A stretch of DNA of 42,328 nucleotides from a virus. Shown here one piece after another: positions 2,202 through 23,272 of the stretch. Each line of letters begins with the position of its first letter. Position 1 is the stretch's first letter. Where the stretch lies: positions 1 through 42,328 of IMG/VR virus record IMGVR_UViG_3300027870_000322. One strand, 5' to 3'. The position numbers and the translations under genes are program-made. Below the pieces are notes generated by a model. That model was not told where the DNA came from. It saw only the letters and a list, made by a program, of their open reading frames with translations, and did not search any database.

Positions 2202-2226
2202 GTCTCAATTCTAGGAAAAATGAGAC
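2202..2226 (-). repeat. 25-bp dyad element, copy A (upstream of lysis genes)
   Basis: The outer arms GTCTCA and TGAGAC are perfect inverted repeats around an asymmetric core. It differs from copy B (18356) at two of 25 positions. It lies in the 81-base gap between the papain-like protein gene and the first holin, 42 bases before the holin ATG. Read on the minus strand the core contains TAGAAT, close to a -10 hexamer, but I see no -35. It may be an operator for the Mor-like activator or an RNA hairpin. Confidence 0.75.
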
Positions 2227-2240
2227 AACAATTACGGTGG

Positions 2241-2780
2241 CTAACAGCTGGGGCTAATCGCCAACAGCGCCGTCTCGCAGATGCGCTCGAGCGCATCGAA
2301 CATGTCGCGCCCTGCGGCCTTGAAGAAGCCGGCGGCCAGCTCGTAGCAGAACCACTTCGACGGGTCTGCCCAGTTTTCGCCAGGCGCCAGGCCGAGACCG
2401 AGCGCACCACCAAAGTCGTAGTTGTTATGGATCATGAGCAGTACTGCGCACGCCAACGGCCGCAGCGGTACTGGCACCCAGCCCGGCGCCGTCGGCACGT
2501 AAGTGCACAGCTGACTTTCGAGGAAGGCAATGCCAGCGACCAGGTCGGGCACGTAATGCACTCGCTCGCGCACGATCGTCTGTCCTTTCAGAATGTCAGC
2601 ACACGGCCCCTTGCGCACGCCTGTCAGCATGTTCGCCTCATAGCAGGTGTCGCCGATGGCGATGATCACGTGCGACGAGAGAGCGAGCGCGATGCGGCTG
2701 CGCGGCTTCATCCAACGAATAAGCCACGACACCGGGTTCCGGCGCCGACGCGTGAACAGCAGGGTTACTTGGTCTTGCAT
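2241..2780 (-). CDS. Permuted papain-like (YiiX/LRAT-type) protein, 179 aa
   Basis: The likely role is a cysteine peptidase or amidase-like protein of the tail tip or of host entry. A His in a beta strand (SSHVIIAIGD, His37) is followed by a conserved acidic residue (CYEAN, Glu48). Much later, WFCYELAAGF carries Cys145 at the start of a helix. The His-before-Cys order is that of the circularly permuted NlpC/P60 group (YiiX, LRAT). The ATG at 2780 overlaps the upstream tail gene's stop as TGATG. It sits between tail fibre genes and the lysis cassette, where phages often carry cell-wall hydrolases. Family-level assignment rests on this residue pattern only, so activity is inferred. Confidence 0.6.
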   Translation of the reverse strand: MQDQVTLLFTRRRRNPVSWLIRWMKPRSRIALALSSHVIIAIGDTCYEANMLTGVRKGPCADILKGQTIVRERVHYVPDLVAGIAFLESQLCTYVPTAPGWVPVPLRPLACAVLLMIHNNYDFGGALGLGLAPGENWADPSKWFCYELAAGFFKAAGRDMFDALERICETALLAISPSC

Positions 2781-4744
2781 CAGATCTCCTCGATATCGAT
2801 GGTGGTGGAGTAGACAGCCGAGAACTGGTAGGCGACGTCGGAATCTTTCGTGCGTCGCCCGTAGAGCATGTGGTCGCGCTCAAGCGCGAGGTCTGCATGG
2901 TCAGGAAACACGGACAGCAAAACCGGATAGGCGCGGCTATTGCGCACTAGGTCCAGGAACTTGGCGCGGTCGGCCGGCGACATCTTGCGCAGGTCGACCG
3001 GCACCTTGCGGCTGATCGTGCCTGGGTCGGCCAGCTGGTCGCCAGCGGCGCTGCGCGAAATCTCGGTTCGATCGATTACCGAGACCGACGTTCCCGAGGC
3101 GTTGTACTGCGGCGACCATACCGGCCCAGCCACCATGCACGCGGCCTCGATGTAGCCCTGGAGGTTGTCCGGGTCGGCGATATCGAGCGTCAGTGCGGTA
3201 GCGTCCAGCTGCTGCGGCAGCCAGTGACGCGCGCAGGCGCCCCCGCCGTACGCATACGCGCTCGCGGCCTGGGCCGGGGTGAAACCCTCCAATTCGACGG
3301 CCGGCGCCGGGCAGGCGAGCACCCAGCCGCTGTCGTAGTCGTAGCTCTGCCACGCGTCCATATAGCCGGCCGGCCGTACGCCCTGCACCGTACCTACGGA
3401 TGGGTAATAGCTCCCCATCTTCGGACCGGAACATAACATTGCGCCCCAAGCGTAAAATCCAGTCACGCCATCCCCCGCCGTAGAGCTTTCAGAGCCGCCA
3501 TAGAGTGGTGCCCAGTTCGTAACAGGTATGAGGGTGTAGGCGTAGGGTTTGCAAACATAGATTCCGCTAACACCATCCCCTGTGTAATTCGGCGCAGCGT
3601 TGTTACTGACGTTGGTTCCACGAATCTGCCAAGATGTGGCCCCATCCCTGTCGGGCGTGAACTGACAGACCAACTTCCAAAAACCATTACCCATATCCTC
3701 TGTCGAGAATACACATTCGGTTCCGCCGCTCTGAGATGTAATGACGCCTGTTGCTAGGTTAATAATAGCCCAGCGAGTGGCGGCAAGACCTGAATTGGCT
3801 GTCAGCAGCATTACACCGTAGCGAGTCGAGCCGGTCCCAAGAGCTTTCATAGTCTGCTCTAGGACGACAGTGCGCCCGGTTTGACAGGAGATGGGGCAGG
3901 TCGTGTAATGCCCGCTGTTCCCAGTAAGTTCGACAAGCTTATCGACACCCCAGTTTGGGTAAGGTGATACCACATCGGTCACCCGGTCGGTCGTGGCGCC
4001 CGTATTCACCCAGCCGCTTTTGCTGATCTCGTTGTGCTGCGACGCAAACAGACGAAAGCGCGGAACCGTAGCGCCCGTCTTGGTGCTCCAGTTTTCGATG
4101 AATAGTCGATACCAGCCACCACCGGCAGGCGTGACCTTAAATTTGCAGTCTTGCCCTGTGCCATTGCTCATGCGCGACATCCGGCCGTCCTCGAAGTTCA
4201 CCTCCACGGTCGATCCGCTGCCGTCCTTCGCGGTGAGGTTGAAGCACGCGCGCATGAGCGTGTCGCGCTTGAAGAAGACGGCGCCGGAATACGTCGTGTC
4301 GTCGGCCAGACCGGTGATTGAGTAGTCCAGGTAGTGCGAAGTCGCGGTCGTAGTCGGGACGACCTGGTCCGCGGTGTTCGTGCCATTCGGAGCAGCTGTC
4401 ACGTTCGCATTCACGGTTGTTACCGCAGCGCGCGCCCATGCGCCGGTTGAAATATGCATCTCCTCGCTACGGATCACGAGGTTTGTTACCGGCTGCTCGG
4501 TCGACACCCGCACGCGCATCTTCGCCGTCGGCGACCAGTTGCAGAACGGCAGCGCGACGCAGCCAATGCGCGCCGGCGCCGCCCAGGCAGCTTTGTACGT
4601 GCCGCTGGTGGAGGTGAACCGGTGCAGCGACGATTTCACGGCGGCCGCCAGGCTGGCCACAGCGAGGTTTCCGGCCGTGCTCGAGGCGGTGAACGATGCG
4701 GCCTGGCGCAGAGCATTCTTGGTGACGATTCTCAGGTTGGGCAT
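2780..4744 (-). CDS. Large tail fibre/spike-like protein with jelly-roll modules, 654 aa
   Basis: This is a predicted virion surface protein at the distal tail. It is beta-rich, and residues of about 90-235 and 270-450 look like two carbohydrate-binding-type jelly-roll modules. Both carry the pattern GxGWYRL / GNGFWKLV within T/N/G-rich strands, as seen in phage head-spike and tail-fibre binding domains. The C-terminal 150 residues differ (LRKMSPADRAKFLDLVRNSRAYPVLLSVFPD) and look like a globular tip or attachment domain. It is the last large gene of the tail module, a usual place for the receptor-binding protein. The stretch around 3500-4000 is locally more AT-rich than its neighbours, consistent with modular exchange. 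Confidence 0.65.
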   Translation of the reverse strand: MPNLRIVTKNALRQAASFTASSTAGNLAVASLAAAVKSSLHRFTSTSGTYKAAWAAPARIGCVALPFCNWSPTAKMRVRVSTEQPVTNLVIRSEEMHISTGAWARAAVTTVNANVTAAPNGTNTADQVVPTTTATSHYLDYSITGLADDTTYSGAVFFKRDTLMRACFNLTAKDGSGSTVEVNFEDGRMSRMSNGTGQDCKFKVTPAGGGWYRLFIENWSTKTGATVPRFRLFASQHNEISKSGWVNTGATTDRVTDVVSPYPNWGVDKLVELTGNSGHYTTCPISCQTGRTVVLEQTMKALGTGSTRYGVMLLTANSGLAATRWAIINLATGVITSQSGGTECVFSTEDMGNGFWKLVCQFTPDRDGATSWQIRGTNVSNNAAPNYTGDGVSGIYVCKPYAYTLIPVTNWAPLYGGSESSTAGDGVTGFYAWGAMLCSGPKMGSYYPSVGTVQGVRPAGYMDAWQSYDYDSGWVLACPAPAVELEGFTPAQAASAYAYGGGACARHWLPQQLDATALTLDIADPDNLQGYIEAACMVAGPVWSPQYNASGTSVSVIDRTEISRSAAGDQLADPGTISRKVPVDLRKMSPADRAKFLDLVRNSRAYPVLLSVFPDHADLALERDHMLYGRRTKDSDVAYQFSAVYSTTIDIEEI

Positions 4745-4745
4745 G

Positions 4746-5384
4746 CTATTCCGTGGTGGTGGTGTTCATCTGCAGGGCCAACGCCTGCATGTCGGCTTCC
4801 ATGTCGGCTACGATCGCTGCAACCTCTGCGGCCGTGGCGGAGTGGCGGACGTCCTCTTTGTTCGCGAGACGGAGCTCGCGGATGTCGTCGAGCAGCGCAT
4901 ACCAGCGGTCGGCGGTGGCCAGGATGTCGTCGGCGGCCTGGCGCGCTGTCCAGCCGGCGCGCCACTTCGCCATCGCCCAGCTGGCCACGCCCCGCGGCAC
5001 GTAGGCGTCGTCTCCTTCGGGATAGCCGGCAGCGCGGTACTCGCGCGCGTGCTGCTCAGCGCGCACGTACTCCGGCGTCTGCGTCATCTTGCTGATGACA
5101 GCCAGGCGCAGCGCTTCGCCGGCGGCGTCGATGGAACCAATCGCCTCGGTGCGGTACTCCTCGAGCAGCTTTGTGTCGGACCAGGCAATCTGCTCGTTGA
5201 CCAGGTGCGCCACCTCGGAGTCGCGGCGGCCGGCGCGGCTGAACTCGCCGTCGAAGCGCAGCAGGCGGACACCGGGCTCGTTCTCTGCTCGCGGAAGGAT
5301 CGGGCCATCATCGGCATCGTCTTCCATGCTGATCCCCAGGATGAGATTCTCATCACCCTGCAACATTAAAAATGGCTTCTTCAT
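4746..5384 (-). CDS. Tail-fibre-associated helical protein, 212 aa
   Basis: I do not recognise a precise family. The ATG at 5384 overlaps the upstream fibre gene's TGA as ATGA, so it is preferred over the more distal start at 5411. Residues 1-55 are beta-like and acidic, and residues 60-212 are predicted mostly helical with many Ala, Glu and Arg (ASWAMAKWRAGWTARQAADD). Its place between two fibre genes suggests a fibre-assembly chaperone or a collar between fibre parts. It has no membrane segment or signal peptide. The functional assignment is inference from context. Confidence 0.5.
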   Translation of the reverse strand: MKKPFLMLQGDENLILGISMEDDADDGPILPRAENEPGVRLLRFDGEFSRAGRRDSEVAHLVNEQIAWSDTKLLEEYRTEAIGSIDAAGEALRLAVISKMTQTPEYVRAEQHAREYRAAGYPEGDDAYVPRGVASWAMAKWRAGWTARQAADDILATADRWYALLDDIRELRLANKEDVRHSATAAEVAAIVADMEADMQALALQMNTTTTE

Positions 5385-7117
5385 TGGATTTGTCCCGATC
5401 CGTGCTGCCAATAGATCTGGCAGCCTGCGCGCGCAACGGCACCGTTGTCGTCGATCACTTCCAGCGACACCCAGACCACGTTGACGAGGTTGCTCCCGCG
5501 CCCCCTGATGGCTATAGACCCTCCCTGCGGATCGCCCGACATCACGACTTCGCCTGACGGCCCCACCTCTGCATTCATCGACCAGCGGTACTTAAATGGT
5601 CCAGTCCCATCAGTCAGCGTCGGCGACAAAGTTGCGTACGTGACAAGCGTGGATGTGTTTGCTTGGCTGCGTCGGTCAATCGACGGCAGAGTGGCCCGGA
5701 ACGGTGAGACCTCTTTCGCTTTCTGAATGATGAGTTGGTTGCCATCCCACTCCAGCATGCCGCTGGAAGGATCGCCGACTACCAGTTTCGGCACGCCGTT
5801 GTGCATGCCCATCCAGAGGCCTTTGCCGACCTTGTAGTCCGTCATGCCTTGGCGGATATGGCCGTCGGGGCCAATCTGCAACTTACCCAGGAAGGCAACG
5901 ATTGCAGCCAGCTCAGTGACCGATATCTTCTGTGCAGTGATTGCGCCATCTTTGATCAGCACACTATCCATGACGCGCGTGATGGAAAACCCGCCGATTT
6001 CGGCCGCGCCGCTCTGTACACGCCGGCGGATACGCAGGTTGGAATTCACCAGCCTCGGGTCATTCGGGATAGTTACCGTATGTGAAATTACCCTAGCGCC
6101 TCGCGAGTTGCTGGCATATTGGATGGGTCCGCCATCGGGCCAGGTATATCCGGACGAAGGCACGCCGTTCTGGTAGAACTGCACGAGTGGCCAGTGCCAG
6201 TCAATTGTGAGTTCGCCGTACCAATTGTCAGTGAAGCCGACCCGATACTCAATCAGGTAGGTTGCGCCCGGTACGATTGGGATCGCACCGGTCCATGTGT
6301 CGTGAAACACGTAACCGTTTGCATTGAGGTACAGGGATGCATTTTGTTTCCAATCCGTTACCAGCTGTTGGTCCGTCCAGTCCGCGACCGCTAGCGGGTA
6401 TCCGGCTAAACCCCACCACAACAAGTCCTTGAAACGTGGATCAGGGATAAGGTTATTGGCATCGCCCATGACTGCCAGGCTTCGAGCAGTTACAGCGCCT
6501 ACGGCAAGTTTCTCAGCCGTGATTGCCCCTGCAGACAACGCTGCCGTGAGGATCGATTCGGTTGCGATCAGACGGCCGTTGACGACCACGCCATTCTCGA
6601 CCCAGGCCGAGCCAGTCCAACGCTTCTCCATAACGTAGGTGCCGCTGCTGATTGTCACGACGTCGCCAACCACCTTAGTGGTTGGTACCGTGATGTTCGC
6701 CAGGGCGTCAGTCCAGGCTGTGCCCGAGCCGTAGTAGTGGCCGGGGCCGCGTGCACCTGGTGTGCCGGTACCGGACGCGCCGTCGCGCAGCACCGGGATG
6801 ATCAGCGCGCGCTGGAACTCGTCGCCGTTGCTCTCCACCGTAGCGGTGACGATGGCGGTTTGGCCGTCATAGGTGACGTCGACGCTGCGGCCAACGGCGT
6901 TCGACAGCGTGCCGCCGACGGCAGTGAAGCTGACCGCATCGTCCAGGCCGACAAGGTCCGCTGTGACGGTCACCTTGGCCAGGTCGACTTGGCCGGCTGC
7001 ATTCAGGTGGAAGCCTGGCGCGCTGGCTGTCAGGTTAATCCAGGCGTTCTTCGGATTGACGATCCGTACCGTCGCGGCCTGCAAGATGGCGTCGCGGTCG
7101 TTCAGCACTGCGCTCAT
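5381..7117 (-). CDS. Tail tip / central fibre protein (J C-terminus-like), 578 aa
   Basis: The true start is the ATG at 7117, overlapping the upstream stop as ATGA; the reading frame is open further upstream but that part is a shadow of the previous gene. The N-terminal 180 residues are Ig-like and beta-rich. They are followed by a short GASGTGTPGARGPG collagen-like stretch and a repeated ITAEKLAVGAVTARSLAV heptad-like region. After a jelly-roll-like module comes IKDGAITAQKISVTELAAIVAFLGKL, a helical motif like that near the C-terminus of lambda gpJ-type central fibres. A C-terminal Ig-like domain ends the protein. It probably forms the fibre protruding from the tail tip and may contact the host. 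Confidence 0.65.
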   Translation of the reverse strand: MSAVLNDRDAILQAATVRIVNPKNAWINLTASAPGFHLNAAGQVDLAKVTVTADLVGLDDAVSFTAVGGTLSNAVGRSVDVTYDGQTAIVTATVESNGDEFQRALIIPVLRDGASGTGTPGARGPGHYYGSGTAWTDALANITVPTTKVVGDVVTISSGTYVMEKRWTGSAWVENGVVVNGRLIATESILTAALSAGAITAEKLAVGAVTARSLAVMGDANNLIPDPRFKDLLWWGLAGYPLAVADWTDQQLVTDWKQNASLYLNANGYVFHDTWTGAIPIVPGATYLIEYRVGFTDNWYGELTIDWHWPLVQFYQNGVPSSGYTWPDGGPIQYASNSRGARVISHTVTIPNDPRLVNSNLRIRRRVQSGAAEIGGFSITRVMDSVLIKDGAITAQKISVTELAAIVAFLGKLQIGPDGHIRQGMTDYKVGKGLWMGMHNGVPKLVVGDPSSGMLEWDGNQLIIQKAKEVSPFRATLPSIDRRSQANTSTLVTYATLSPTLTDGTGPFKYRWSMNAEVGPSGEVVMSGDPQGGSIAIRGRGSNLVNVVWVSLEVIDDNGAVARAGCQIYWQHGSGQIQ

Positions 7118-8598
7118 ACGAGAAACCCTACCTTGACGCGCCCGGTGTTCCAGTCGGGCGCCAATGAAATAACGATGCCGGAGACGCCGGCGTCCATGCC
7201 GAAGCGCGGGCTGAAGACAGTCACCGCCTGGCCCAGCTCGAGCTGCAGCAGCTCGGGCACGCCGTCGAACTCGTAGGTGGTGCGCGGCACCTTCCACAGG
7301 TCGAGCCGTCGCTGCGCCTCGGCGTCCGCGTCGGCCCGGGTCAGCAGCATCGTGTCGACTTGGGCCGGCTCGGCGTTCAGGCGGTAGGTGGCCAGCGTCG
7401 CCGCGTCGGTCTTGGTGGTGGTCAGCCACTCCTCGGTGAAGAGCGCCTTGTGCACCTCCGGCAAGTTGGCCAGCGTGCCGGCGTCCTGCACGGTCCAGTT
7501 CTTGGCGAAGCCCAGCTTCACGGCGCCGACCACGTCGGTGCGGCTGGCCGGCTGCAGCGTGCCGTCGATCATGTGTTCCGGCCTGATCACGAACGGCGTG
7601 CCAGTGCCGGGCAGCGCGACCTGGATCAGCCGCATCAGGCCCAGGCGCGACATCACCAGCTGCGCGCCGATGCTGCCGAGCAGCATCTGGCACGCGGCCA
7701 GCACGTTGAGCCGGTCCGTGGAATACAGCCCCATCGGCTGTGGATGCGCCGCGTCGAAAGCGGCAATGTTCGCCAGGTCGAGATCCGCAGCTGTGAAGCG
7801 GTCGGCGGCCTTACCGTAGCCGGTTGCCAGCCGCTTGCACATCGTGGCCGCGGTGTCACAGTAGCCGGCGCCGCTGTCGCCCTTGACTGAAAGCGTCACG
7901 GCGCCGGCCGGCGTGGATTCCAGCGTCACGGTGCCGGCGGCCGGATTCGATGTCATCGCCACCGGTGCGCCGTTGTCGCGCGCCTCGTTGGCGATCACAC
8001 CCTCCGCCGACGCGCAGTGGTAGCCATAGGTCAACGTCGCTGGGTTGATCGGCAGCGGCGTGATGTTCGACACCTGCCCGATCGCGAACGGAAGGAGCGC
8101 GTCCTTCTGTTCGGTCTCGCCGCCCAGCTTCGCCTCGGTGATCGCCGTGTTCAGGCGCTGCAGCTTGTCGCGCAGCTTCAGGGCCAGCTTGTTCCGGCCG
8201 CGCGGCGCGATGTCCGCCACAATGCCGTTGAAGACCATCCGGAAGTCGGCGCGTGGCCAGCGAAGGTCGCCGATGTATGCCTTGATCTCCCGGTTCTTCC
8301 ACACGTAGCCGGCGCCGGCCCAGGCATCGCGCACGCCGGCGGTGTTGTCGATCTCCAGGTCGCCGGCGGAGAGCGCACCATCGCCTTCCAGCGACAGCCG
8401 CTCAGTGAACAGCGTGCCAACGGCGGCGATCGGCTGATACGCGGTGTTAGCCGGAACGTCGGCCGGCGCCGTGGTGTACGACCTGGTCGCCATGTAGACC
8501 GTGGTCTCGACACCATTCACCCGCACCGCCGCCTCAATCAAGACACAACGATAAGCGGCCGAGCTTTTTAGCCAGGCCAAGAACTGAGCATCGGTCAT
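7114..8598 (-). CDS. Tail hub / baseplate-like protein, 494 aa
   Basis: It lies immediately after the tape measure gene and overlaps it as ATGA, the usual position of distal tail or hub proteins. The N-terminus (AAYRCVLIEAAVRVNGVETTVYMATRSYTT) and middle (FNGIVADIAPRGRNKLALKLRDKLQRLN) are of the kind seen in siphophage tail-tip proteins that cap the tube. The C-terminus (LGQAVTVFSPRFGMDAGVSGIVISL...DWNTGRVKVGFLV) resembles the end of baseplate hub domains that bind the tape measure. No enzymatic motif was seen. The exact family is not recognised, so the structural role is inferred from order and fold features. Confidence 0.6.
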   Translation of the reverse strand: MTDAQFLAWLKSSAAYRCVLIEAAVRVNGVETTVYMATRSYTTAPADVPANTAYQPIAAVGTLFTERLSLEGDGALSAGDLEIDNTAGVRDAWAGAGYVWKNREIKAYIGDLRWPRADFRMVFNGIVADIAPRGRNKLALKLRDKLQRLNTAITEAKLGGETEQKDALLPFAIGQVSNITPLPINPATLTYGYHCASAEGVIANEARDNGAPVAMTSNPAAGTVTLESTPAGAVTLSVKGDSGAGYCDTAATMCKRLATGYGKAADRFTAADLDLANIAAFDAAHPQPMGLYSTDRLNVLAACQMLLGSIGAQLVMSRLGLMRLIQVALPGTGTPFVIRPEHMIDGTLQPASRTDVVGAVKLGFAKNWTVQDAGTLANLPEVHKALFTEEWLTTTKTDAATLATYRLNAEPAQVDTMLLTRADADAEAQRRLDLWKVPRTTYEFDGVPELLQLELGQAVTVFSPRFGMDAGVSGIVISLAPDWNTGRVKVGFLV

Positions 8599-11500
8599 TG
8601 CGGAGCCACCCTGTCTTCGGTTCGGCCGAGGGACGAGATTGCCGCCCCGGTAACGCGGGCCATGGTCTCGGCCGAATTAAGCGACGCCACGGCGCCACCG
8701 CGGATGATGTCGCCAGTCTGCACCTGCTGGTCCGCACGCAGACCGGCCACCTCTGCACGCAGCTGTTGGTTGTCGTCACGCAACCCCTTGATCTCGGCCA
8801 CCAACGATGTAGTGTTCGATGTGCCGAGGGCGGCATAGTTGATTGGGCCAAGCGCCGGCGGCGCATAACCAATCGGTCCCACGGTGGGCGGCGCATATGC
8901 AGTCAGGGCCGCGGCATTCTGTTCCATGATCGTTTTCAGCTGCAGGACCGCGTCACGCACTGACATCACTTCTTTCTTAACTTCGATCAGCCCGGCCACT
9001 TGCGTCTCCAAAGCCGTGAGCTGTGCTTTGCCGACGTCGACCTGGGCCTCCGCCCAACGCGCCGCCTCTTCGGTCGCGGCTTGCGCGTACGCGAAGTCAG
9101 CCTGGTACTGGGCACCGCTCGCGAACACCGTGCGCGAAGCCTCCAGGAACGCGCTGAAGGCGCTTTGATAGTTCGACTGGGCTGACTCATCCCCGCCACG
9201 TGCGGCCGCCAGCACGGCCTCGTACTGCGCCTTGGCTTCGAAGTATTTCTGCTGCGGAGACAATGGGGACAAGCCACCAAGGACGGCGCTCTTTGCCAGG
9301 CTGCGCAGGCTGGCGGCGAACGAGCCCATCCGATCCATCGTGTTGCGGATCGCTTCGGCTTCCGCATCGTAGGCGTCGACCAGCATCGACTTCGCGCTCG
9401 ACAGGCTGACCGTCGTGTCGATGATTTCCGGGTAGACCTTGGCGAATGCCTCTTGCAGATCCATCAAGGCCAGGTACTGTTCACGCTGAGCTGCGTTGGT
9501 CAGATCCAGGCCGACGACATACTGCTTGAACGATTCGCGCGAGCGCAGTGAGGAGAGTCCCATCGCCGCCAGCTGCTCGGCCACATATTTCTGGATCGGC
9601 GCCAGGCGCTCGGCCTCGGTCAAAAAGTTGTCGGCGAACGATGCAGTCTTGCTTGCGAGTTCGTCGATCCCGCCGGCCAGCTCAATAAAGTCTTCGCGAA
9701 CACTAATGCTCGACATGCCGACGAGCCCAAAGGACTTGCCGACGCTTGCCAGAACCGAGTCGAGGTTCGCGTAGTTCGCCGAGATGCGCACCAAGGTCTC
9801 GAGTGCGCCTTCCCCGCCTTTTTGGAAATCAAGCAGGTCACCCACTGCCCATCGAGCCATATCGTCGCCGACTTTGGAAAACGCAGCTTCGAGCTGCGCC
9901 TGGATCTCCTCCGGCTTGAGGTCTTTCGTCGAAATCTTGCCGATGTCGACCACGAAAGCATTAAGCCGCTGAGTGAATGCGCTTCCGCTAAATCCCAGCA
10001 GGCGGCTGGCTTCGGCTACAGTTTTTCCAAGACCGGAAATAATCGCCTTGAACTGCTGGTCGGCCTCCGGACCCAGGTTTGTCGGATCGGTCCAGTAGTC
10101 ATCACTGTGGAACAACCCGCCGCTCTTCTTCATATCGGCATAGCCCTGCGCTCTCAACTGACCTGCATAGACGCCAGCGAGTGTGGTCTTGTTCGTCATG
10201 ACGCCGACGTCGCGCGCGCTTACTTTGCCTCCAAAAATGGCGTTGCCAATCTTGCCTGTGATACGGCCAATCCAGCCCCCTGTGAGCGCATTAGCAGCCA
10301 TTGCCATAAGTCCATAAGGACCTGTCAGAGCAAGTAGCGGCCCCTTCCCGCCCATACGTTCACCCCACTCATACGAGCTTCCATATTTACTGGCAGGTGC
10401 AGCGCCGCTCACGCCATTTTGCGCGAGGACTCCACCCAGACCACTAATAGAGCCCTCGATGGCGCGCAGGGAGCGAAGCATTCCAGCGGTGTAGTTCAGC
10501 TCGATGTTCGAATTTGCAGCCGCCAGCTCGATGGCTTTTGCGATCGACTCGGACTTTGCTGTTGCATCCCCAAGGATGGAGCCAGTCCCGGTTGCGGCCT
10601 GACGATCCTTCGCGGTCGTGTCGCTGCCGCCACCACCCGCCACAGCGAAGCCGAGTGCTGCCATCACAGCTGCCATTGCAGCCATTCGTGCCCATGCGCT
10701 ATAAGGGTCGCCCTGGGCTTGAGCTGCAACGCCAGCCGCCGCCGCCGCTTGGCCTTTTGTCATCGATGCCGCAACGTCCGGCCCTACGCTGGCAACCGAT
10801 GCAGCTGTCTCGGTTGCCTTGCTGGCGACGAACATCGAAGTGAAAGCCGTCAGGATGCCACTCTTTTCGAGCATGGTCTTCACAGCGAGGGCCATCTCGA
10901 ACGCACGGAATGTTTTCTCTGCTGCCTCCATCGCCTGGTATCCACGAGAATGCTCATCGAAGAAACCTTTGGCAGCGCCGGCCATGTCGCCATATGACTG
11001 GATCTGCGCCTGCGCGGACTGCTTTGCGGCTTCGGCATTGGCCTTCTCGATCTTGGTTTTGTCGCCTCCGGAATTCTTCAAGGCCGATGCCAGCTGCGCA
11101 GCGATCGTCGCCTGCGAACGTGAGTACCCGGTAAGGGCCGTAGCGAGCCCGCCGATGGCTTTGCCGACACGGCCAAAGGATTGCTCCATGCCGCTGGCCG
11201 CCTCGTTGGCGGCGTCGTCCACCGACTCCATGATCTGCAGCATCTGGGTGGCACGCTCAAGGTCGACGTCGGCAAACGACTGTTTCGACCGCAGGGCATA
11301 CCAGGCCAAGTACTCGGTCTCCAGCTGCTTGCGCGCCTCGTTACCCACGCCGGCCTGGTTGATACGCTCCTGCCACACTGCGGCGTCGATCGCCAACAGG
11401 GCCTGGGCGCGCTCCTGCGGGTCGGCGATGTTCTCGGCCTCCGCGCGGCGATTCTGTTCGGCCAGCTGGGCCGCATACAATAGGGCTTTGCTCTGGCCGA

Positions 11501-13280: not shown

Positions 13281-13292
13281 ATGTCCCTGCCC

Positions 13293-14988: not shown

Positions 14989-14990
14989 CG

Positions 14991-15143: not shown

Positions 15144-15144
15144 G

Positions 15145-15869: not shown

Positions 15870-15878
15870 GGCGGCTGG

Positions 15879-16211: not shown

Positions 16212-16246
16212 GTGCTTCCTTGATCGTTTCGTTGACGGGCAAGCGC

Positions 16247-18340
16247 TTACGCGCCGGTGCTTTTTTGCAGGCCGCGGTGATCGATCGCCGCAGCTGCGAA
16301 GTCGAGGCGGCACTTCCAGGTAACGCCATCGACCTCGAAGCCGGCCTGACTTTCGATGACTGGGCCCTCGGCACCGTCCAGGTAGCAGAACTCGACGGTA
16401 TCGACTTGGCTGTTGCTGCTGGCCATGTACCAGGCGGTCTCGCTTGCTTCGTCCAGAATCGGCTCGACGACTGGCTCGACTGCCGTGCGGCCACCGGTGC
16501 GGAACTCGTTGACATCATCCTGTTTCGCCGGAACGTAAGCCGAGCTGGTCAGCTGATACGCTTCCTGCTCGAGCTCGGATGGGACGATCAGGAAGTTCGG
16601 GACGATGTTCAGATTCTCGTTTTGCAAACCCTTCTGCTTCCGCATCGCGGTGCGAGCAGCTTTCATGGAGGCGAGCTGCAAGGCCGAGCCCGTGCCGTTC
16701 GCGAGATTCTTGTGATCTGCGTGGAAGAGCGCTTTGCCGTCGCCCATGGTCGGATTGCCGGTCAGCTGGCTATACACCAGACGGTTCTCCAGGCGGCTGG
16801 AGCTGGCGCCGAAAGCGGTCACCATCTTTTCGAAGGTGCGCAGGTCATCGTTGATGATGGCCTGGCGAGTGAGCGAGATCATGCGACCATAGGTGACCAG
16901 ACCGTAGCTCATCCCAGCATCCTTCATCGTGCCGTACTGGAACTCGCCATGTTCGTTGGTGCGCAGCAGCTCAGGTGCGCCCGACATCTGGACGATGTTC
17001 ATACTTTTAAAGTCAGGCGCGTTCGGGGCCTTGCGCGCCCATTGCGTATAGGTTCCTTGGGCCTCCTCGTACGCGCCACGCATGCGCTTATTCGCGACGT
17101 TGGCGAAGATCGCTGCAAAGTCGCTGGTGCCGTGCATGCCCGAGCGGTACTGGAGGATTTCGGTTGCCAGGCGCAACTTGTCCATGCCGCGGGTCTGCAC
17201 GCCGCGCGATTCCAGAAAGTCGCGGCCGACCTCGATCAGGCTCATGCCACGGAACTGGCGGCCGTTGTCGGTCAGCTTGGCGCCGGCATACACGCGGTGC
17301 ATCATTGCCTCTTCGATGCCGGCCATGCGAGTCTGGAACTCGTCGCCGACCAACAGCACGCGGGTGTTCTGGTGGCCACCGGCAGCGGCATCGTTGCGGG
17401 CCAGTTCTTCCAGCACGGCAGCACGGGCCTGGTCGACCGAACCACCGCTGCGGATCAGGCCGGCGGCCAGGTGGCCGACAGCGTGACGGGTGCACAACTC
17501 GGTAATGTCAGCGGCGCGGGTTGCTGCTTCCGTTGCTGCGCGGATCGCGGCATCGTCGCCAGCTGGCGGATTCGATGGCGCAGCACCCGTCGGCGCCTGT
17601 GCTGGGGCAGCCGGAGCGGCGGTACGGGTTGCATCGGTAGGCGCTGGGTTCGGTGCGCCCGACTGGGGAGTGGTCATAGGGTTTTCCTGTGAGGTTGGAA
17701 CAGACGAAAGGGCGGGCGCCCGGGTGGTGAATTCGCAAGGTGTGCCGTTGGTAGGCGCGCTACGCGTGCTGGCTTCAGCGTCGAATGGAATGCCGACAAA
17801 GCTGAGCTCATGCGGCTGCCACGACACGGCACGGTACAGAGGCAAAGTGCCGCCGTCCGCGCGATCAATGGCGCGCGTGATCTCGTATTTATTGACGACG
17901 TAGCCCACCGAGATCGAGCGGATGATCCCGGCCTTGATGTCGTTGACGATGTCAGCGATGTCCGCACGCTTAGACAAACGCAGGGTGGCCGTGCCTACAC
18001 CGTTTTCGATGGCGCCGCGGATTGCCACGCCGAGGATCGCGCCGACGCCGCCGTAGGTGCGATGGCTGTCGAAGACCTGGATCGTGCCCGCCTCGAAGCG
18101 TGTCATATCAACCGCTTCCGGAGTAACGGCGAGCTCCTCTTCATACTGCGTCTCGGTCCACCAGTCATAGCGGCGGCCGCGAGCGCCGGTGGTCCAGACT
18201 ACGTCAACGGTATTGTCTTGATCGTTGAAGGTGCTCGGAACCAGTTCGGCCGTGCGCGTCAGCATCGGCATATTCCGGGGATCGGTGGCGGACCGGGTAG
18301 CGTTCTGCGGGTGGGTGGTTGGCGTCGTCATGCCCACCAT
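16247..18340 (-). CDS. Prohead protease / major capsid protein fusion, 697 aa
   Basis: A single frame joins an HK97-type (U35) prohead protease with a major capsid protein. Protease motifs are FDSHRTYGG (His93) and IRSISVGYVV (Ser144), followed by the expected HELSFVGIPFDAEA block near 183. A low-complexity Ala/Pro/Thr linker (about 215-265) follows, then a helical scaffold-like part and a capsid domain to residue 697 (MSYGLVTYGRMISLTRQAIINDDL, LEQEAYQLTSSAYVPAKQDDVNEFRTG). Such fusions are known in proteobacterial phages; the product is expected to self-process. The ATG at 18340 or the one at 18331 could start it, and neither has a strong ribosome-binding site. Dyad copy B lies 15 bases upstream. 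Confidence 0.9.
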   Translation of the reverse strand: MVGMTTPTTHPQNATRSATDPRNMPMLTRTAELVPSTFNDQDNTVDVVWTTGARGRRYDWWTETQYEEELAVTPEAVDMTRFEAGTIQVFDSHRTYGGVGAILGVAIRGAIENGVGTATLRLSKRADIADIVNDIKAGIIRSISVGYVVNKYEITRAIDRADGGTLPLYRAVSWQPHELSFVGIPFDAEASTRSAPTNGTPCEFTTRAPALSSVPTSQENPMTTPQSGAPNPAPTDATRTAAPAAPAQAPTGAAPSNPPAGDDAAIRAATEAATRAADITELCTRHAVGHLAAGLIRSGGSVDQARAAVLEELARNDAAAGGHQNTRVLLVGDEFQTRMAGIEEAMMHRVYAGAKLTDNGRQFRGMSLIEVGRDFLESRGVQTRGMDKLRLATEILQYRSGMHGTSDFAAIFANVANKRMRGAYEEAQGTYTQWARKAPNAPDFKSMNIVQMSGAPELLRTNEHGEFQYGTMKDAGMSYGLVTYGRMISLTRQAIINDDLRTFEKMVTAFGASSSRLENRLVYSQLTGNPTMGDGKALFHADHKNLANGTGSALQLASMKAARTAMRKQKGLQNENLNIVPNFLIVPSELEQEAYQLTSSAYVPAKQDDVNEFRTGGRTAVEPVVEPILDEASETAWYMASSNSQVDTVEFCYLDGAEGPVIESQAGFEVDGVTWKCRLDFAAAAIDHRGLQKSTGA

Positions 18341-18355
18341 TCTGCGGATTGCACT

Positions 18356-18380
18356 GTCTCAATTCTCGGAAAACTGAGAC
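18356..18380 (-). repeat. 25-bp dyad element, copy B (upstream of capsid fusion)
   Basis: This is the most symmetric copy: TGTCTCA and TGAGACA arms with inner TT/AA pairs around a short asymmetric core. It lies in the 54-base gap between the gene ending at 18395 and the protease-capsid gene starting at 18340. It differs from copy A and from copy C at two positions each. Confidence 0.78.
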
Positions 18381-18394
18381 AACTTTTCCAGCCG

Positions 18395-18709
18395 TCAACC
18401 AGGCCGCGCTTTGAAGTAGATCTTCCTGGAATCGCGGCTCTTCCCGTCAGTGCATTCGAACGCAAAGGTTACCGAGTTTTCGGCACCTGCTTGCGTGTTC
18501 AGCCCATCCACCCAGGCGCATACGCAGGTTCCGTCGATGAAGGCCTCACCGTCGATCGTCACGCCGCGGGCTTCGCCGGTTACTGTTGTTAGGCTCGTGC
18601 CGGCCCGAGCGAGCCAGGCTGCCAGGTCGATCCCGTACAGGAGGCGAGCCCCTGGCGTCTTGTAGATGGTGAGCTGGCCGTCAATGACAAAGTAGCTTTC
18701 AGTACGCAT
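18395..18709 (-). CDS. Gp77-like fibre-tail adaptor/virion protein, 104 aa
   Basis: The pattern K-x-PGARLLYGIDLAAWLARAGTSL, then a strand-rich body with DGTCVCAWVDGL and NSVTFAFECTDGKSRDSRKIYF, fits the small beta-sandwich family often annotated as phage fibre-tail adaptor (Gp77-like). These usually lie among head genes and bind virion surfaces. It precedes the capsid fusion and follows the repeat-rich LamG-like protein, so it may bridge that protein to the particle. Assignment is by motif recollection, so moderate. Confidence 0.55.
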   Translation of the reverse strand: MRTESYFVIDGQLTIYKTPGARLLYGIDLAAWLARAGTSLTTVTGEARGVTIDGEAFIDGTCVCAWVDGLNTQAGAENSVTFAFECTDGKSRDSRKIYFKARPG

Positions 18710-18724
18710 GTGGTATTCGTTCTT

Positions 18725-20224
18725 TCAATGAAGGGTCAGGATGCGCTGCTCACCGTCTGCAGTCCAAATGCGGCACTCGCCTACGGCAGCATGGATACGC
18801 CGCTCACCGGGATTGGTATAGATGATGGCCAGACCGAGCCGAACCAGCGCGCCGACCGTACCGGTGTTGTGCTGGGTCCCATCGGCGCCGGCCAGCACAG
18901 CGGACTGCGTAATGGCGCCGGCGTCACCGACGTTCGCCTGCTGCCCTTCAGCGCCTTCCAAGGAGTCGGGCACAGCAATCGTGATCGCGCCCACGCTGCC
19001 GTCATTGACCTGGGCACCGTGATCAGCGACCAGGTTCTGCACTTGGCCGACAGCGCCCGCAGCACCAGCGTTCTGCTGGCCTCCATCTGCGCCCGCAAGT
19101 ACCTGCACCTGCCCAATCGTGTCGACGCTACCGGAATTCAGCTGGTTGCCCTCTACCCCCACGAGCAGACCCGGTGCTTCGCTCGCAATCTCGCCGCTTC
19201 CTGCAGCGTTCTGCTGTACGCCATCGGCACCAGTAAGGGCCAGCACCTGGCCGATTTGCCCAGCGTCCGTGATGTTCAGTTGCGCACCGTCGGCACCGCC
19301 CAGGTTCTGCACCTGGCCGAGCATCCCAACGCTGCCAGCATTCGGCTGCGTGCCGCCGGCGCCGGCGGTTTCTTGCGTTTGAGTTATCGAACCAGCGGAG
19401 CCTGTATTGGCCTGGCTACCATCACGCCCGACAAGCTGGAGCGGGATAGCGGCAGGTGCTGCGCCAACCAGATGCCGTGGCGCTCGCAACATCTGCCATG
19501 GCGCAGTGCGCTGCGCGTCCACCTCCACAGGGTCGAGAAGGCGGTCCCATGTGTTGACCAGGGCAATGCTGCCATCCCAGCAGCGCGCACCGTCGGAGCC
19601 CCGGTTGCCGATAACAAGCGGCGAAGCCAAATCGCGCAGCGCACCCGGAACGACCGAGCTGGCCAGCACCAGGGCGCCGTCAACCCAGATGCTGATATAG
19701 CTGTTCACGCCATCGTAGGCATGCTCGATCCAGATCTCGACGTCTCGGCCAACGGCTGCTGAGACGTTGCTGTCGGGGATGGTGACGGTACGTTCAGTCC
19801 CTGCCCCGGTGTAGAAACCGTAAGCCATCCTGGCCAAGCTGCCATACCAGTACAGGAACTGGCCGGAACCCCCGTTGGTTTTATCGAACACGCGGCCCAG
19901 GCTACCGCCACCAGCGCCGTTTCGCCGGACGACAACTTGGTAGGTACGACCGCTCAGCCCGATCTGACTGGACAAGCCGGTCGTGATTTTGTCGCTGTTG
20001 GAGACACCAGTGGCAGCGCCGAAACTTGCACCGAGCCCGCCGGCCAGCGGTGCGACCTTCGTGCCGGTTACCGTAGGGTGCTGCTGTGCTACGAGGTCAA
20101 ACGCCCGGTGCAGACCGGGGGCAACGGACATGGCCAGCGCTCGGGTGATCGGGTTGCTCCAGTCAACCGGCAGAACATGCTGAGGCTGCTGCGTAAGGCG
20201 AGCCGGCTGGATCATTGCCCCCAT
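18725..20224 (-). CDS. LamG-like virion protein with nine 22-residue repeats, 499 aa
   Basis: Residues about 30-240 look like a LamG/concanavalin-like jelly roll (YQVVVRRNGAGGG, FLYWYGSLARMAYGFYTGAG, YISIWVDGALVLASS). Residues 263-464 are nine tandem units of about 22 residues with consensus L-x-GADG-x-Q-x-N-x-G-x-x-G-x-I-x-Q-x-Q. The tail (about 468-499) is NPGERRIHAAVGECRIW then GEQRILTLH. The repeats may form a beta-solenoid stalk, with the jelly roll as a sugar-binding head. It lies in the head module between portal-linked genes and the capsid fusion, so a capsid fibre is plausible. The start could be 20224 or 20215. Confidence 0.62.
   Translation of the reverse strand: MGAMIQPARLTQQPQHVLPVDWSNPITRALAMSVAPGLHRAFDLVAQQHPTVTGTKVAPLAGGLGASFGAATGVSNSDKITTGLSSQIGLSGRTYQVVVRRNGAGGGSLGRVFDKTNGGSGQFLYWYGSLARMAYGFYTGAGTERTVTIPDSNVSAAVGRDVEIWIEHAYDGVNSYISIWVDGALVLASSVVPGALRDLASPLVIGNRGSDGARCWDGSIALVNTWDRLLDPVEVDAQRTAPWQMLRAPRHLVGAAPAAIPLQLVGRDGSQANTGSAGSITQTQETAGAGGTQPNAGSVGMLGQVQNLGGADGAQLNITDAGQIGQVLALTGADGVQQNAAGSGEIASEAPGLLVGVEGNQLNSGSVDTIGQVQVLAGADGGQQNAGAAGAVGQVQNLVADHGAQVNDGSVGAITIAVPDSLEGAEGQQANVGDAGAITQSAVLAGADGTQHNTGTVGALVRLGLAIIYTNPGERRIHAAVGECRIWTADGEQRILTLH
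18833..19438 (-). repeat. Nine tandem ~66-bp coding repeats
   Basis: Each unit encodes about 22 residues with a GADG-x-Q-x-N core. The units differ in most positions outside the core, so this is an old, diverged protein repeat and not a recent DNA duplication. Confidence 0.8.
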
Positions 20225-20227
20225 AGG

Positions 20228-20671
20228 TTACGGCGCCAGCTTCTCGGTGCGCGGCGTTACCTTGAGCGTCCAGCCAGCGGCCAAGCTCTGGCCGGTGCCG
20301 CTGTTGTAAACATAATAGTCAGCCTTGCGAGGCAGGCCGTAGGCGGTCAGCAGCATGGCCTGCTCGCTGGTCGTGTTGTTGACGACGAATGATCCGACGA
20401 ACAACGTCGGGCGCGAAGCCTCGGGGACTTCGGTATCCTTGGTCCCGTCGATATCGAGCGGGCGGGCGTAAAGCAGCAGCGCGGCGCTCTCCACCGGTGC
20501 AACCCCGAACGTCCCGACCAAGGCGAAATCCGCATCGGGATAGCCTTGTCCATCGAGCTCGACGGCGTACGTCGCTGCGCTCGCCTGCACGATCGCCGCG
20601 TTCGCGATCATTGCGCCGCTGGACTCGAGCACCTTAACCGTACCCCATGCTGCAATGCGTTCGCCGCTCAT
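20228..20671 (-). CDS. Unknown head-module protein, 147 aa
   Basis: It is not recognised. The product is beta-rich, with a segment ADFALVGTFGVAPVESAALLLYARPLDIDG and a C-terminal GWTLKVTPRTEKLAP. It has no membrane segment. It overlaps its upstream neighbour as ATGA and is followed after three bases by the LamG-like gene, so it is probably a structural protein co-translated with it, such as an anchor of the repeat-rich protein to the capsid. That role is inference. Confidence 0.5.
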   Translation of the reverse strand: MSGERIAAWGTVKVLESSGAMIANAAIVQASAATYAVELDGQGYPDADFALVGTFGVAPVESAALLLYARPLDIDGTKDTEVPEASRPTLFVGSFVVNNTTSEQAMLLTAYGLPRKADYYVYNSGTGQSLAAGWTLKVTPRTEKLAP

Positions 20672-21132
20672 AGGGTCACCCGCCCTTCCGCCTTATTCAG
20701 GGCTGCGCTCACCTCGCTGAAGTGCACTGGCGCCGCAGCATAGCCCAGCGCCTTGATGCGCTCGAGCTCTACCTGGTATTCCGGCATAGCGGCGATCAGC
20801 TTGTCGAGATACTTCTGCGCGTCCGGCAGGCCCGGATCGAAGGCGCCGCGGCGGATCGGGTCCATCCCCCAGTAAAGCTCGCGGTCCTCGTCGCCGTGCG
20901 CTTCGATTGCATCCAGGAAGTGGCCACCTCGCGGCGACATCACGGCCAGGATCGTCCCGGTGCCTACGCGCTCGGTCACGCGTTGCAGCACTTGGCGCCG
21001 GACCGAAAGATGAGCGGCGATCGCCACATCGTTACGAATGGCCACCAGAGCGTCCAGCTGCGCCAAGTCGTCGGCCGTCAGATCGCGCCCAGCCAGTTCG
21101 GCCAGCGCTTCGCGTTGGGGTTGCGAGAGCAT
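20668..21132 (-). CDS. Unknown head-module protein, 154 aa
   Basis: The start is set at the ATG at 21132 (MLSQPQREALAELAGRDLTADDLAQL), four bases after the upstream stop; the longer frame is a shadow. The mostly helical N-terminal half (ALVAIRNDVAIAAHLSVRRQVLQRV) continues with a segment rich in charged residues (HGDEDRELYWGMDPIRRGAFDPGLPDAQKYLDKL). The family is unrecognised. Similar proteins accompany portal and fibre-adaptor genes in head modules, but I cannot assign a function. Confidence 0.5.
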   Translation of the reverse strand: MLSQPQREALAELAGRDLTADDLAQLDALVAIRNDVAIAAHLSVRRQVLQRVTERVGTGTILAVMSPRGGHFLDAIEAHGDEDRELYWGMDPIRRGAFDPGLPDAQKYLDKLIAAMPEYQVELERIKALGYAAAPVHFSEVSAALNKAEGRVTL

Positions 21133-21136
21133 CGGC

Positions 21137-21526
21137 TTAGACTGGCTGGTTGCTGGTGTAGCTGAGCGGCGGGAAGTTGATCCCGTTGCCGGAGGTGACC
21201 GGCATGTCGCTGCTTTCGTCGGTGACGTACAGCACGCGCTGGGTGGCTGTATCAACCCACGCGAAGCCGAGGTCAGCGCCGACGACCGTCGCGGTGGCCG
21301 TGCTGCTCTTGGCCGCGCTGGTCACGCGGCGGTTGCCGTCGCCAACGGTCGACAGGGCGAAGTCCGTCGGCGCCATGACGGCCTCGGCCAACTTGTTGCC
21401 CATGACGGTCGCATAGCTGTCGCCCTTCGCATAGGTCGAGATCAGGACGATGCGGTTGACGTTTGCCTTCAGGGAGGCCGGGCCGCCGTCGAGGGTATCC
21501 TGGTGCGCCCATTTTTGAATGGTCAT
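21137..21526 (-). CDS. Unknown head-module protein, 129 aa
   Basis: This is a predicted structural protein of unknown family. It starts MTIQKWAHQDTLDGGPASLKANVNRIVLIS and consists of alternating strands with many Thr/Ser/Ala residues. AAVMAPTDFALSTVGDGNRR-like and TATATVVGADLGFAWVDTATQRVLYVTDE sections suggest a compact beta-sandwich, as in minor capsid or decoration proteins. It lies four bases after the portal stop. Confidence 0.5.
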   Translation of the reverse strand: MTIQKWAHQDTLDGGPASLKANVNRIVLISTYAKGDSYATVMGNKLAEAVMAPTDFALSTVGDGNRRVTSAAKSSTATATVVGADLGFAWVDTATQRVLYVTDESSDMPVTSGNGINFPPLSYTSNQPV

Positions 21527-21529
21527 GCG

Positions 21530-23011
21530 TTATTCCTTTGTAGCGTTGGTATTTTGTTCTGCGGTGGGGGTAGGCATGTTGCCGCGCTGCAGGAAGAGCA
21601 TCGTGTCGAGGATGCCTCGCTCCTTCAGCTTCTTGAGGTCGGATGCCCATTCGTCGAACACGACGTCGGGGTCATAGCCGCGCTGGCGGAGCTTTTCGCT
21701 CAGGGTCGATAGGCCGGCCGCGATCTCGGCCTGGTCCGCCTTCACGTCCTGCTCGGGGTTGACGTAGTCCCATTTCGGCGGACTGAAGTCGACCGCCATA
21801 TCACGCCCGCGGATCTTGCCGGCCAGGTAGGCTGCTTCGATGAACGCCTCGTGAATCGGGCGCGCCAGTTTCGGGATCAGGACCAGCCACTGGATCTGCT
21901 GTACTTCGCGCCGGAAGTCGAGACCACGCACGCGTGCGCTGCTGAAGTTCACTCCGCTCATGTCGCCGGTCACCATCTCATATGGGACGCCCAGGCCGGT
22001 GGCGATGATGTGCACCTGGTACTTCACATACTCGACATGACCCGGCACTGCCTTCGGCTCGACGACGGTAAAGTTCATCCCAGCCGGCATGCCCACGATA
22101 CCTCCTCCACCCAGCTCGCCCAGGTCGCGCACGCCACCGCCCTGCTCCGGCGCCGCTCCGCCAAGCGATGCAGGATTTTCCATGCCGGACATGTCGCCGC
22201 TGGCCAGCACGCTCAGGCGCGTCTCCAGGTTCTTGCGTGCCAGCTCGGCGTCCTCGTACAGCTGCAGGTCGCGCACGCGCGCGATCACCGGCGCAAAGCG
22301 CGTGAAGCCGCGGCCCTGCCCTGGGCGCTCGGGGTTGTACAGGTGAATGATGAACTGGGCGGAGACGCGAGTGCTCTGCGTCTTGCGACCGCGAATCGTG
22401 TTCGCATCGCCTGGGTGCTGATCCCACAGGTAATACGCAGCGACCGCCCCTAGCACGTCGTATTCGATGCCGTTGATTATCTGGTTGTTACCGTTCGTGC
22501 CAGTGCGGGTGTCGTCCAGCCAGTCGATCTCGAGGAGCTGCAACTGCAGCGGCACCGGCAGCCCATCAGTCGGGCGGCGCGGGCGCAGTCGTACCAGCAC
22601 CTCGCCGTCCTGCTCCATCGCGGCATAAGCCGCCTTCACCATTCCGAAGTAATCGTAGCGACCGTCCGCATCGCAGACATTGCTCCATTCGGCGAACAGC
22701 TTGTTGATCGTGTCCTTTTCCTGGCCGGTTGCGCGCGGCACGATGCCAGTACCGACGGTGGCCGTGGCCAGGCCTTTCAGTGCCGCACAGCAGTAGGGAA
22801 CATTCTGCACCAGGGCGCGCGCTTTGACGCGCAAGGTCTTAGCATCGGCCTGGTGGTCCGCGTTTGCACTCGCGCCGGCGCGCCGTGGGCGCCAGGTGTC
22901 GCGTGGGCTTGCTGCCTCGTACGCCCGCTCCAGCTGCTTGCGAGCGAAATGCCGTGCGATGCCGGCGTGGGGGTTGACCCAGCCGATAACCCGGTCGATC
23001 AGGTTCGGCAT
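21530..23011 (-). CDS. Portal protein (lambda gpB-type), 493 aa
   Basis: This forms the dodecameric channel for DNA packaging and head-tail connection. Typical lambda-type features are seen: a basic N-terminus (HFARKQLERAYEAASP), ALVQNVPYCCAALKGLATATVGTGI, a segment with AYAAMEQDGEVLVRL, LQLLEIDWLDD, NGIEYDVLGAVAAYYLWDQHPGD, and FTRFAPVIARVRDLQLYEDAELARKNLE. The IIATGLGVPYEMVTGDMSGVNFSSARVRGLDF block is especially characteristic. The length is normal for the family. The ATG overlaps the gpW stop as TGATG. Confidence 0.93.
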   Translation of the reverse strand: MPNLIDRVIGWVNPHAGIARHFARKQLERAYEAASPRDTWRPRRAGASANADHQADAKTLRVKARALVQNVPYCCAALKGLATATVGTGIVPRATGQEKDTINKLFAEWSNVCDADGRYDYFGMVKAAYAAMEQDGEVLVRLRPRRPTDGLPVPLQLQLLEIDWLDDTRTGTNGNNQIINGIEYDVLGAVAAYYLWDQHPGDANTIRGRKTQSTRVSAQFIIHLYNPERPGQGRGFTRFAPVIARVRDLQLYEDAELARKNLETRLSVLASGDMSGMENPASLGGAAPEQGGGVRDLGELGGGGIVGMPAGMNFTVVEPKAVPGHVEYVKYQVHIIATGLGVPYEMVTGDMSGVNFSSARVRGLDFRREVQQIQWLVLIPKLARPIHEAFIEAAYLAGKIRGRDMAVDFSPPKWDYVNPEQDVKADQAEIAAGLSTLSEKLRQRGYDPDVVFDEWASDLKKLKERGILDTMLFLQRGNMPTPTAEQNTNATKE

Positions 23012-23223
23012 CAGTCGCCCCTCGAGGTAGTGAAGCCGAAGCGGAAGACGCTCGGGCCGCGATTGCGACCGGTGGCGTTCACGACCGTGGCGACGTGATT
23101 GCGCGCCTCGATTAGCGAGGCTGTGGACTGGTACGTAACTTTGCGCCCGCCAAATTCCACCGACAGCGTGCCGGAAGCGATTGCGGAGTCGAGCGCGTCG
23201 AGGTCAGATTGAGTGAGGGCCAT
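23011..23223 (-). CDS. Head-tail joining protein (gpW-like), 70 aa
   Basis: This small connector fills the space between portal and tail. The sequence MALTQSDLDALDSAIASGTLSVEFGGRKVTYQS, with two short helices and a beta hairpin, followed by LIEARNHVATVVNA, matches the gpW family in content and length. The adjacent portal is coupled. Dyad copy C lies 24 bases before its ATG. Confidence 0.85.
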   Translation of the reverse strand: MALTQSDLDALDSAIASGTLSVEFGGRKVTYQSTASLIEARNHVATVVNATGRNRGPSVFRFGFTTSRGD

Positions 23224-23247
23224 GCCGCCAAGGGTAGCGGCCGGGCT

Positions 23248-23272
23248 GTCTCACTTCTCGGAAAACTGAGAT
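23248..23272 (-). repeat. 25-bp dyad element, copy C (upstream of gpW/portal)
   Basis: It is located in the 48-base gap after the Mor-like activator gene and before gpW. Only the final base of the outer arm is changed (GAGAT instead of GAGAC), so the dyad is slightly imperfect. Its right edge touches the stop codon of the activator gene. Confidence 0.75.

Follow-up and report, generated by a model that had tools for sequence, protein, structure and literature searches.

A Mor-family protein and three candidate late-promoter operators in a temperate-like phage sequence

The window analyzed here is the whole 42,328-nt stretch of the IMG/VR record IMGVR_UViG_3300027870_000322 (positions 1-42,328), which looks like a temperate phage or prophage and carries three copies of a 25-bp dyad, GTCTCA-N13-TGAGAC, together with a gene for a Mor-family protein. 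It encodes a tyrosine integrase, a gpA-type terminase and a lambda-family portal, in addition to a CI-like S24 repressor and a CII-like CP76 protein. As a sequence-only reading had described, the three dyads, termed operators A, B and C, sit in gaps between minus-strand open reading frames (ORFs) of the late operon, 15 to 42 nt before start codons. On the minus strand, operator A (2202..2226) and operator B (18356..18380) are exact and precede the lysis cassette and a protease-capsid fusion gene, respectively, whereas operator C (23248..23272), located between the Mor and gpW genes, reads ATCTCA-N13-TGAGAC with one mismatch. This mismatch falls in the arm beside the Mor stop codon, whose last base is common to both. 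Operators A and B differ from each other at two positions, as do B and C, again in line with that reading. The elements are clearly non-random: with at most one mismatch, the window contains three against 0.03 expected, a number reached in none of 100 shuffles, whereas at a tolerance of three mismatches such dyads are no longer unusual (11 found versus 15.5 expected).

Each dyad is followed closely by a structural or lysis gene. Operator C lies 24 nt from the ATG at 23223 of a gpW-like head-tail adaptor (23011..23223, minus strand; phrog_2545 head-tail adaptor, E 8e-20, aligned from residue 1), which is the first gene of promoter C and is followed by the portal. Operator B lies 15 nt from the first ATG (18340) of the protease-major capsid fusion (16247..18340, minus strand; phrog_4523, E 1.3e-231; PF25209), or 24 nt from a second ATG at 18331. 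Operator A is separated by 42 nt from the ATG at 2159 of a holin (1926..2159, minus strand), for which the matches to PF16080 (E 7.5e-7) and phrog_20 (E 1.5e-12) were obtained with the ORF 1926-2186.

The gene adjoining operator C (23272..23631, minus strand) encodes a protein of 119 amino acids that belongs, as previously suggested, to the Mor family of late activators, with matches to PF08765 (E 2.6e-10; 40.7 bits versus a curated cut-off of 24.9) and to phrog_532, 'late transcriptional activator' (E 3.5e-11), as well as to the late activators of phrog_836. A profile built on its relatives matches both Mor (1rr7) and C (9l0x) of phage Mu. The recognition helix includes GIG-R105-A106-TVYRIIKQ. 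The gene is located between the terminase and gpW genes, with operator C abutting its stop codon; upstream, the terminase large subunit gene (23562..25706, minus strand; GpA_ATPase and GpA_nuclease) overlaps the Mor start, an arrangement suggesting that the two are probably carried on one earlier transcript. A Massilia contig of 534 kb (L089) encodes a protein that shares 99% identity with it. Three tblastn queries (limits 1e-5, 1e-3 and 1e-3) found no relative among 50,697 phage records, in which the capsid protein, used as a control, gave 131 matches.

Relatives were collected by scanning IMG/VR with the Mor protein, which gave 45 loci, and by profile scans that added loci from viral (best 80 per list) and bacterial collections. 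A hidden Markov model run over all loci yielded 255 Mor ORFs and 143 unique pairs of Mor domain and site, 138 of them at or above the score cut. The site finder was based on G, T, C and A at half-site positions 1, 2, 5 and 6, arm symmetry and a spacer of 13-15, with a bonus for a TTTCC/GAA core and for nearness to the Mor helix; it was blind to the hexamer described below, and half-site positions 3-4 entered only via arm symmetry. In 87 of 102 loci, no more than 63 nt separate the dyad from the codons of the Mor helix, and in several relatives the dyad falls within the final part of the Mor gene. In seven loci (L005, L006, L007, L015, L016, L020 and L037), about 0.3-2.2 kb of extra DNA follows Mor, and there the operator stays with gpW.

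Further analysis revealed a common promoter anatomy. On the minus strand of the window, a putative -10 hexamer of the form NANNNT lies 11 nt past each dyad: TACCCT (23231..23236) for operator C, CAGAAT (18339..18344) for operator B and TAACTT (2185..2190) for operator A. The gpW ATG and ATG 18331 follow their hexamers by 7 nt each, and the holin ATG follows by 25 nt. NANNNT occupies exactly the 11-nt offset in 138/138 confident pairs, compared to 0-13 of 138 at each of the other 39 offsets (0-39); it does so in 100/100 pairs after clustering Mor at 90% identity, and in 12/12 third-site (lysis-position) operators, one of which comes from a near-copy of the window phage. The first position is T in 129 of the 138 pairs; the hexamer matches TATAAT at only three of six bases in 131, and TGn is present in 3. 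There is no recognisable -35 element, the best match at spacers of 15-19 reaching at most 3/6 in 107/138 sites, versus 108/138 in one shuffle each. The earlier statement that the sites show no consistent -10/-35 thus stands for the -35 part and has to be given up for the -10 part, which is fixed at 11 nt at all three sites. Given the weak -35, the weak -10 and the rare TGn, these promoters look activator-dependent.

An A-tract precedes most dyads, with at least three A at positions -7 to -3 in 120/138 gpW-type sites and 93% A at -5, a signal partly confounded with the C-terminal codons of Mor. Capsid sites have it too, and visual inspection finds it at 7 of 12 third sites; operator A of the window has no A-tract. 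Just upstream of operator C, the A-rich stretch 23273..23282 (minus strand), which overlaps the last Mor codons, is a candidate proximal subsite of an UP element. Downstream, the ATG stands 6 or 7 nt past the hexamer in 89/138 pairs. Because the -10 is only 7 nt from the ATG, the gpW and capsid transcripts probably have little or no leader. The start classes are not distinguished by Shine-Dalgarno energy (mean -2.4 for 89 presumed leaderless starts versus -1.9 kcal/mol for 20 starts with leaders), so this assignment is a geometric one; several window genes have no strong Shine-Dalgarno site. The same geometry indicates that the capsid gene likely starts at ATG 18331 rather than at the first ATG 18340, because the latter overlaps the predicted -10. 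Automatic annotation would probably set the capsid start three codons early (18331-18340).

Comparison of the protein with its site revealed that residues 104 and 106 of the recognition helix covary with half-site bases 3-4, residues 104-105-106 being read here against both halves of each site. G/S-R-A goes with GTCTCA, G-R-T with GTNCCA, R106 with GTGNCA, and H/N104 with GTCGCA. All 62 SRA pairs have CT at bases 3-4, as do the 44 GRA pairs except for one half, and also the SRS (3), SKA (1) and SKP (1) pairs. Base 4 is C throughout in the ten GRT pairs, with C, T or A at base 3, and C in at least one half in the three GRS pairs. Base 3 is G throughout in five SRR pairs and one SKR pair, base 4 is G throughout in the HRA (3), HRS (1), HRT (1) and NRA (2) pairs, and the single SRV pair has TT. 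The HRT pair combines G at base 4, as for H, with A or C at base 3, as for T, and this single pair suggests that residues 104 and 106 may act separately. Overall, 28 rows have a changed helix or a changed site, and 27 of them have both.

The covariation persists when relatedness is considered. A quick tree was built with the three helix residues (104-106) masked, and edge-disjoint contrasts were drawn between ordinary and changed helices. On the best tree, the site changes in 16/16 independent contrasts; among single-class contrasts, base 4 is G in 5/5 for H/N104, base 3 is G in 5/5 for R106, and base 4 is C in 6/6 for G104 with T106. With well-supported branches only, five contrasts are left and all agree (p 0.06). 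In addition, the hexamer and code rules were written down before two further scans, which supplied 21 new unique pairs: the hexamer rule held in 21/21 and the code rule in all 19 applicable pairs (17 ordinary and two H104), the other two being SRS pairs without a rule.

Dyads in phages that lack the Mor gene had been named as the finding that would speak against a regulon. Among 30 dyad contigs, chosen mostly for length among the matches listed by a DNA-pattern scan, 28 encode Mor, including 17/17 of those of at least 30 kb; 24 were chosen before their Mor status was known, and six were added later, some already showing Mor ORFs or relatives. Two contigs gave no Mor match; at 19.9 and 22.4 kb, their records may be fragments. 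Scans in the reverse direction started from the DNA. The T-type pattern matched 22 stretches in 18 contigs, 15 of which have a Mor gene, comprising 12 T106 (three newly met), one S106, two R106 and no A106; six of the contigs were new to the set, three of these without a Mor match (26.9, 14.0 and 7.3 kb). The R-type pattern matched five contigs, four already in the set and all R106, whereas the fifth (L456, 105 kb) lacks both a Mor match and the hexamer at its site. In separate counts of sites per record, one pattern gave three sites in 12/25, never more, and none in three; another pattern gave three sites in 5/11 and two in 6/11, one of the latter being 41.9 kb long. In four whole Massilia genomes (4.7-6.1 Mb), the element occurs in 3, 3, 3 and 2 copies, in addition to two two-mismatch matches; the third copy is on a separate contig in one genome, and a reversed control pattern gave one match in each of two genomes.

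Altogether, we consider it highly probable (roughly 90%) that the dyads are operators of the embedded Mor-family protein and that this protein drives late promoters of the gpW/head, capsid and lysis genes. The self-contained late regulon proposed in the sequence-only reading thus gains support from the position of the elements, the exact -10 spacing, the concerted change of site and helix, and the co-occurrence with Mor. We propose that, after induction, an earlier transcript through the terminase genes would yield Mor, which, presumably as a dimer or higher oligomer, would bind the 25-bp dyad through its helix-turn-helix (HTH), with residues 104 and 106 likely contacting half-site bases 3 and 4, as their covariation suggests. 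The chain counts of the structures 9l0y and 9l0x suggest four chains of Mor or C in each, and a tetramer is therefore possible for the window Mor too. Bound Mor would replace the absent -35 and allow host sigma70 RNA polymerase to start at three weak -10 promoters (P-gpW/portal, P-capsid/tail and P-lysis), with TAnnnT or CAnnnT 11 nt past the dyad, and the upstream A-tract would probably serve as the contact for the alpha C-terminal domain, in the manner of Mu Pm.

Several observations weigh against this interpretation. The predicted Mor model is mediocre (pLDDT 72, pTM 0.40); Foldseek ranks 1-3 for it are 1rr7, 9l0y and 9l0x, with weak scores (best E 0.018), and the VIA Z values for Mor/C folds (7.4, 7.1 and 6.6) are tied with those of unrelated generic HTH domains. 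The 138 pairs are not independent, forming 100 clusters at 90% Mor identity and 56 at 70%; moreover, five of the 143 pairs fall below the score cut (two of them with NANNNT at +11), and 14 of the 255 Mor ORFs do not match the helix pattern. The branches bearing most of the tree contrasts are weakly supported, and several have long ends. As for the code, the exceptional GRA locus (L058) has one GTCCCA half, and SRS helices go with CT/CT in the three first-set pairs and with TT/TC and TC/TC in the two new ones, which makes S106 ambiguous. The two R106 contigs matched the T-type pattern, because this pattern allows GTGCCA, and the reverse prediction as literally written failed there. One further site (L296; see below) has perfect arms and no NANNNT at +11. 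Finally, the lysis-position operator follows the code only loosely: in T106 phages, the proximal half of the third operator has T, not C, at base 4 in 3/3, and in A106 phages the distal half is changed in 2/9.

Among other explanations, a repressor or architectural role of Mor on the dyads comes first, and we regard it as unlikely. Covariation is silent on the direction of control, and a dyad placed between the UP and -10 positions could block polymerase. However, with -35 matches as in shuffles, a poor -10 and TGn in only 3/138, the promoters resemble those that depend on an activator; in addition, the Mor gene precedes the genes it would repress, and Mu Mor and Mu C are described as activators (PMC4390567, PMC4461284).

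Still less likely is a role of the dyads as hairpins in the late RNA, for processing or translation control, which the sequence-only reading had kept as a real alternative. They are perfect or near-perfect inverted repeats close to start codons, with an inner TTTTC/GAGAA that is partly pairable as RNA, and the mostly symmetric arms of the ordinary class fit a hairpin and an operator alike. In G-R-T phages, however, the two arms vary independently, which disfavors a hairpin: they mismatch at position 3 in 8/10 sites (six not rescued by G-U), yet each arm fits the protein half-site GTNCCA. Site changes that follow the helix of a DNA-binding protein, a -10 spacing fixed at 11, and dyads lying within the end of the Mor coding sequence also argue against it. 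Rfam gave no family at the gathering threshold in the window.

It is most improbable that the element belongs to another DNA-binding protein (a host factor, recombinase or packaging protein) and merely sits beside Mor, a notion prompted by the resemblance of the HTH to those of serine recombinases (HTH_7, E 1.5e-4; Tn3 resolvase among the fold matches of the Mor model), since the element varies together with residues 104 and 106 of Mor and co-occurs with Mor, the four host genomes hold no exact or one-mismatch copies beyond the two or three prophage ones, and the 119-residue ORF has only Mor and HTH-type matches and no catalytic domain in Pfam.

The Mor-operator assignment was extended to further sites by scanning the same loci (1.63 Mb, near relatives included) with GTNNCA-N13-15-TGNNAC. 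For this pattern, a both-strand control is meaningless, GT..CA-N-TG..AC being its own mirror. The scan gave 109 matches, 80 with the hexamer and 29 without; 77 of the 80 fit the class of their Mor, including 18/18 in phages with a changed helix. Matches in three loci (L079, L317 and L297) have the hexamer and no TTTCC core, and were taken as chance. Third sites in L111, L112, L113, L114 and L116 consist of one ordinary and one changed half, or of a changed pair, a mixture unlike most gpW and capsid operators. Perhaps the third promoter tolerates one weak half-site, or lysis modules have been exchanged; it may be a weaker or later promoter. The third site persists while the gene behind it varies, the ten proteins tested comprising two holins of phrog_20/4237, two holins of phrog_785, two members of phrog_1024, which carries no function annotation, and four without a match. 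With a holin annotation in only 4/10 proteins, the label 'lysis' in relatives rests on position. The lysis site was not traced in the distant groups.

The window contains other features apart from these promoters. An imperfect inverted repeat (27041-27090 / 27190-27239) has 50-nt arms, 84% complementary and 99 nt apart, and is located in the gap between the primase ORF and the minus-strand gene that follows; it may be a small mobile element or a terminator. In a second, 41-nt inverted repeat (31716-31756 / 32960-33000; 78%), the first arm lies inside the CI-like repressor ORF as listed (31586-32494) and the other past its end. A large C-5 cytosine DNA methylase gene (PF00145) is encoded on the plus strand at 36749-38935.

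The protein family is known from Mor and C of phage Mu, whereas the operator geometry (11 nt versus 24 in Mu) and the natural code appear to be new. Among the matches listed by searches of open-licence literature, none was seen to report the regulon or the code. To our knowledge, the control of late genes is not known for most prophages; here, sequence alone gives a candidate activator, three predicted promoters and the genes they would serve. As a tentative generalization, which we find plausible though not quite probable, a large Mor-family clade in non-transposable betaproteobacterial prophages may use its own promoter class, with an operator at about -48 to -24, a rigid 11-bp spacing, a degenerate -10, leaderless or near-leaderless structural genes and a modular two-residue code. 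If so, the operator in this class would take up the -35 position and some of the spacer, residue 104 would set base 4 and residue 106 bases 3-4, operators would be predictable from protein sequence, and orthogonal activator-promoter pairs could be built. The natural covariation, with two residues, two bases and several independent swaps, amounts to a ready-made specificity experiment.

Sites of gamma-delta/Tn3 resolvases (res) are dyads of a length similar to the window element. The likeness extends to the HTH; however, the window ORF lacks a catalytic domain, and the window sites carry a -10 at fixed spacing. The window Mor and both Mor and C of Mu are of the same Pfam family. Mu is a transposable phage, whereas the window encodes a tyrosine integrase together with a gpA terminase of the lambda type. 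Mu Mor is reported to bind a dyad at Pm as a dimer, in the absence of a -35 and with a proximal UP subsite just upstream (PMC4390567; PMC4287176). This Pm element spans 16 bp, has 5-bp repeats and is centered at -43.5, and adenines -55 to -53 form part of the proximal UP subsite (PMC4390567). With the hexamer placed at -12 to -7, the center here would be at about -36 and the A-tract at about -55 to -51. In addition, Mu Mor is a middle activator, whereas the window protein would serve late genes.

The C protein of Mu offers the second comparison. It is reported to act at four promoters, by isomerisation at lys, I and P and by recruitment at mom (PMC4461284). As proposed for the window, Mu has one activator, C, for head and lysis promoters (Plys, PI, PP and Pmom), dyads upstream of a -10 without a good -35, and NANNNT hexamers (TAAGAT at mom, TAGACT at lys and CAAACT at I); this comparison covers the sites at mom, lys and I, which were picked by motif, and mom has a second NANNNT at 27. 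They differ in that the ATAA arm is 24 nt from the hexamer at mom, lys and I, compared to 11 nt from dyad to hexamer here, and in that the Mu-type operator is a dyad of 14-16 bp, compared to 25-27 bp with 6-bp arms. The distance from the distal arm to the -10 is similar (38 nt at Mu mom versus 36-38 here), whereas the proximal arm lies closer to the -10 than in Mu, by about one helical turn. The 11-nt spacing thus raises a clear structural question, namely by what arrangement a dimer or tetramer of Mor would replace the -35 contact one turn closer than in Mu.

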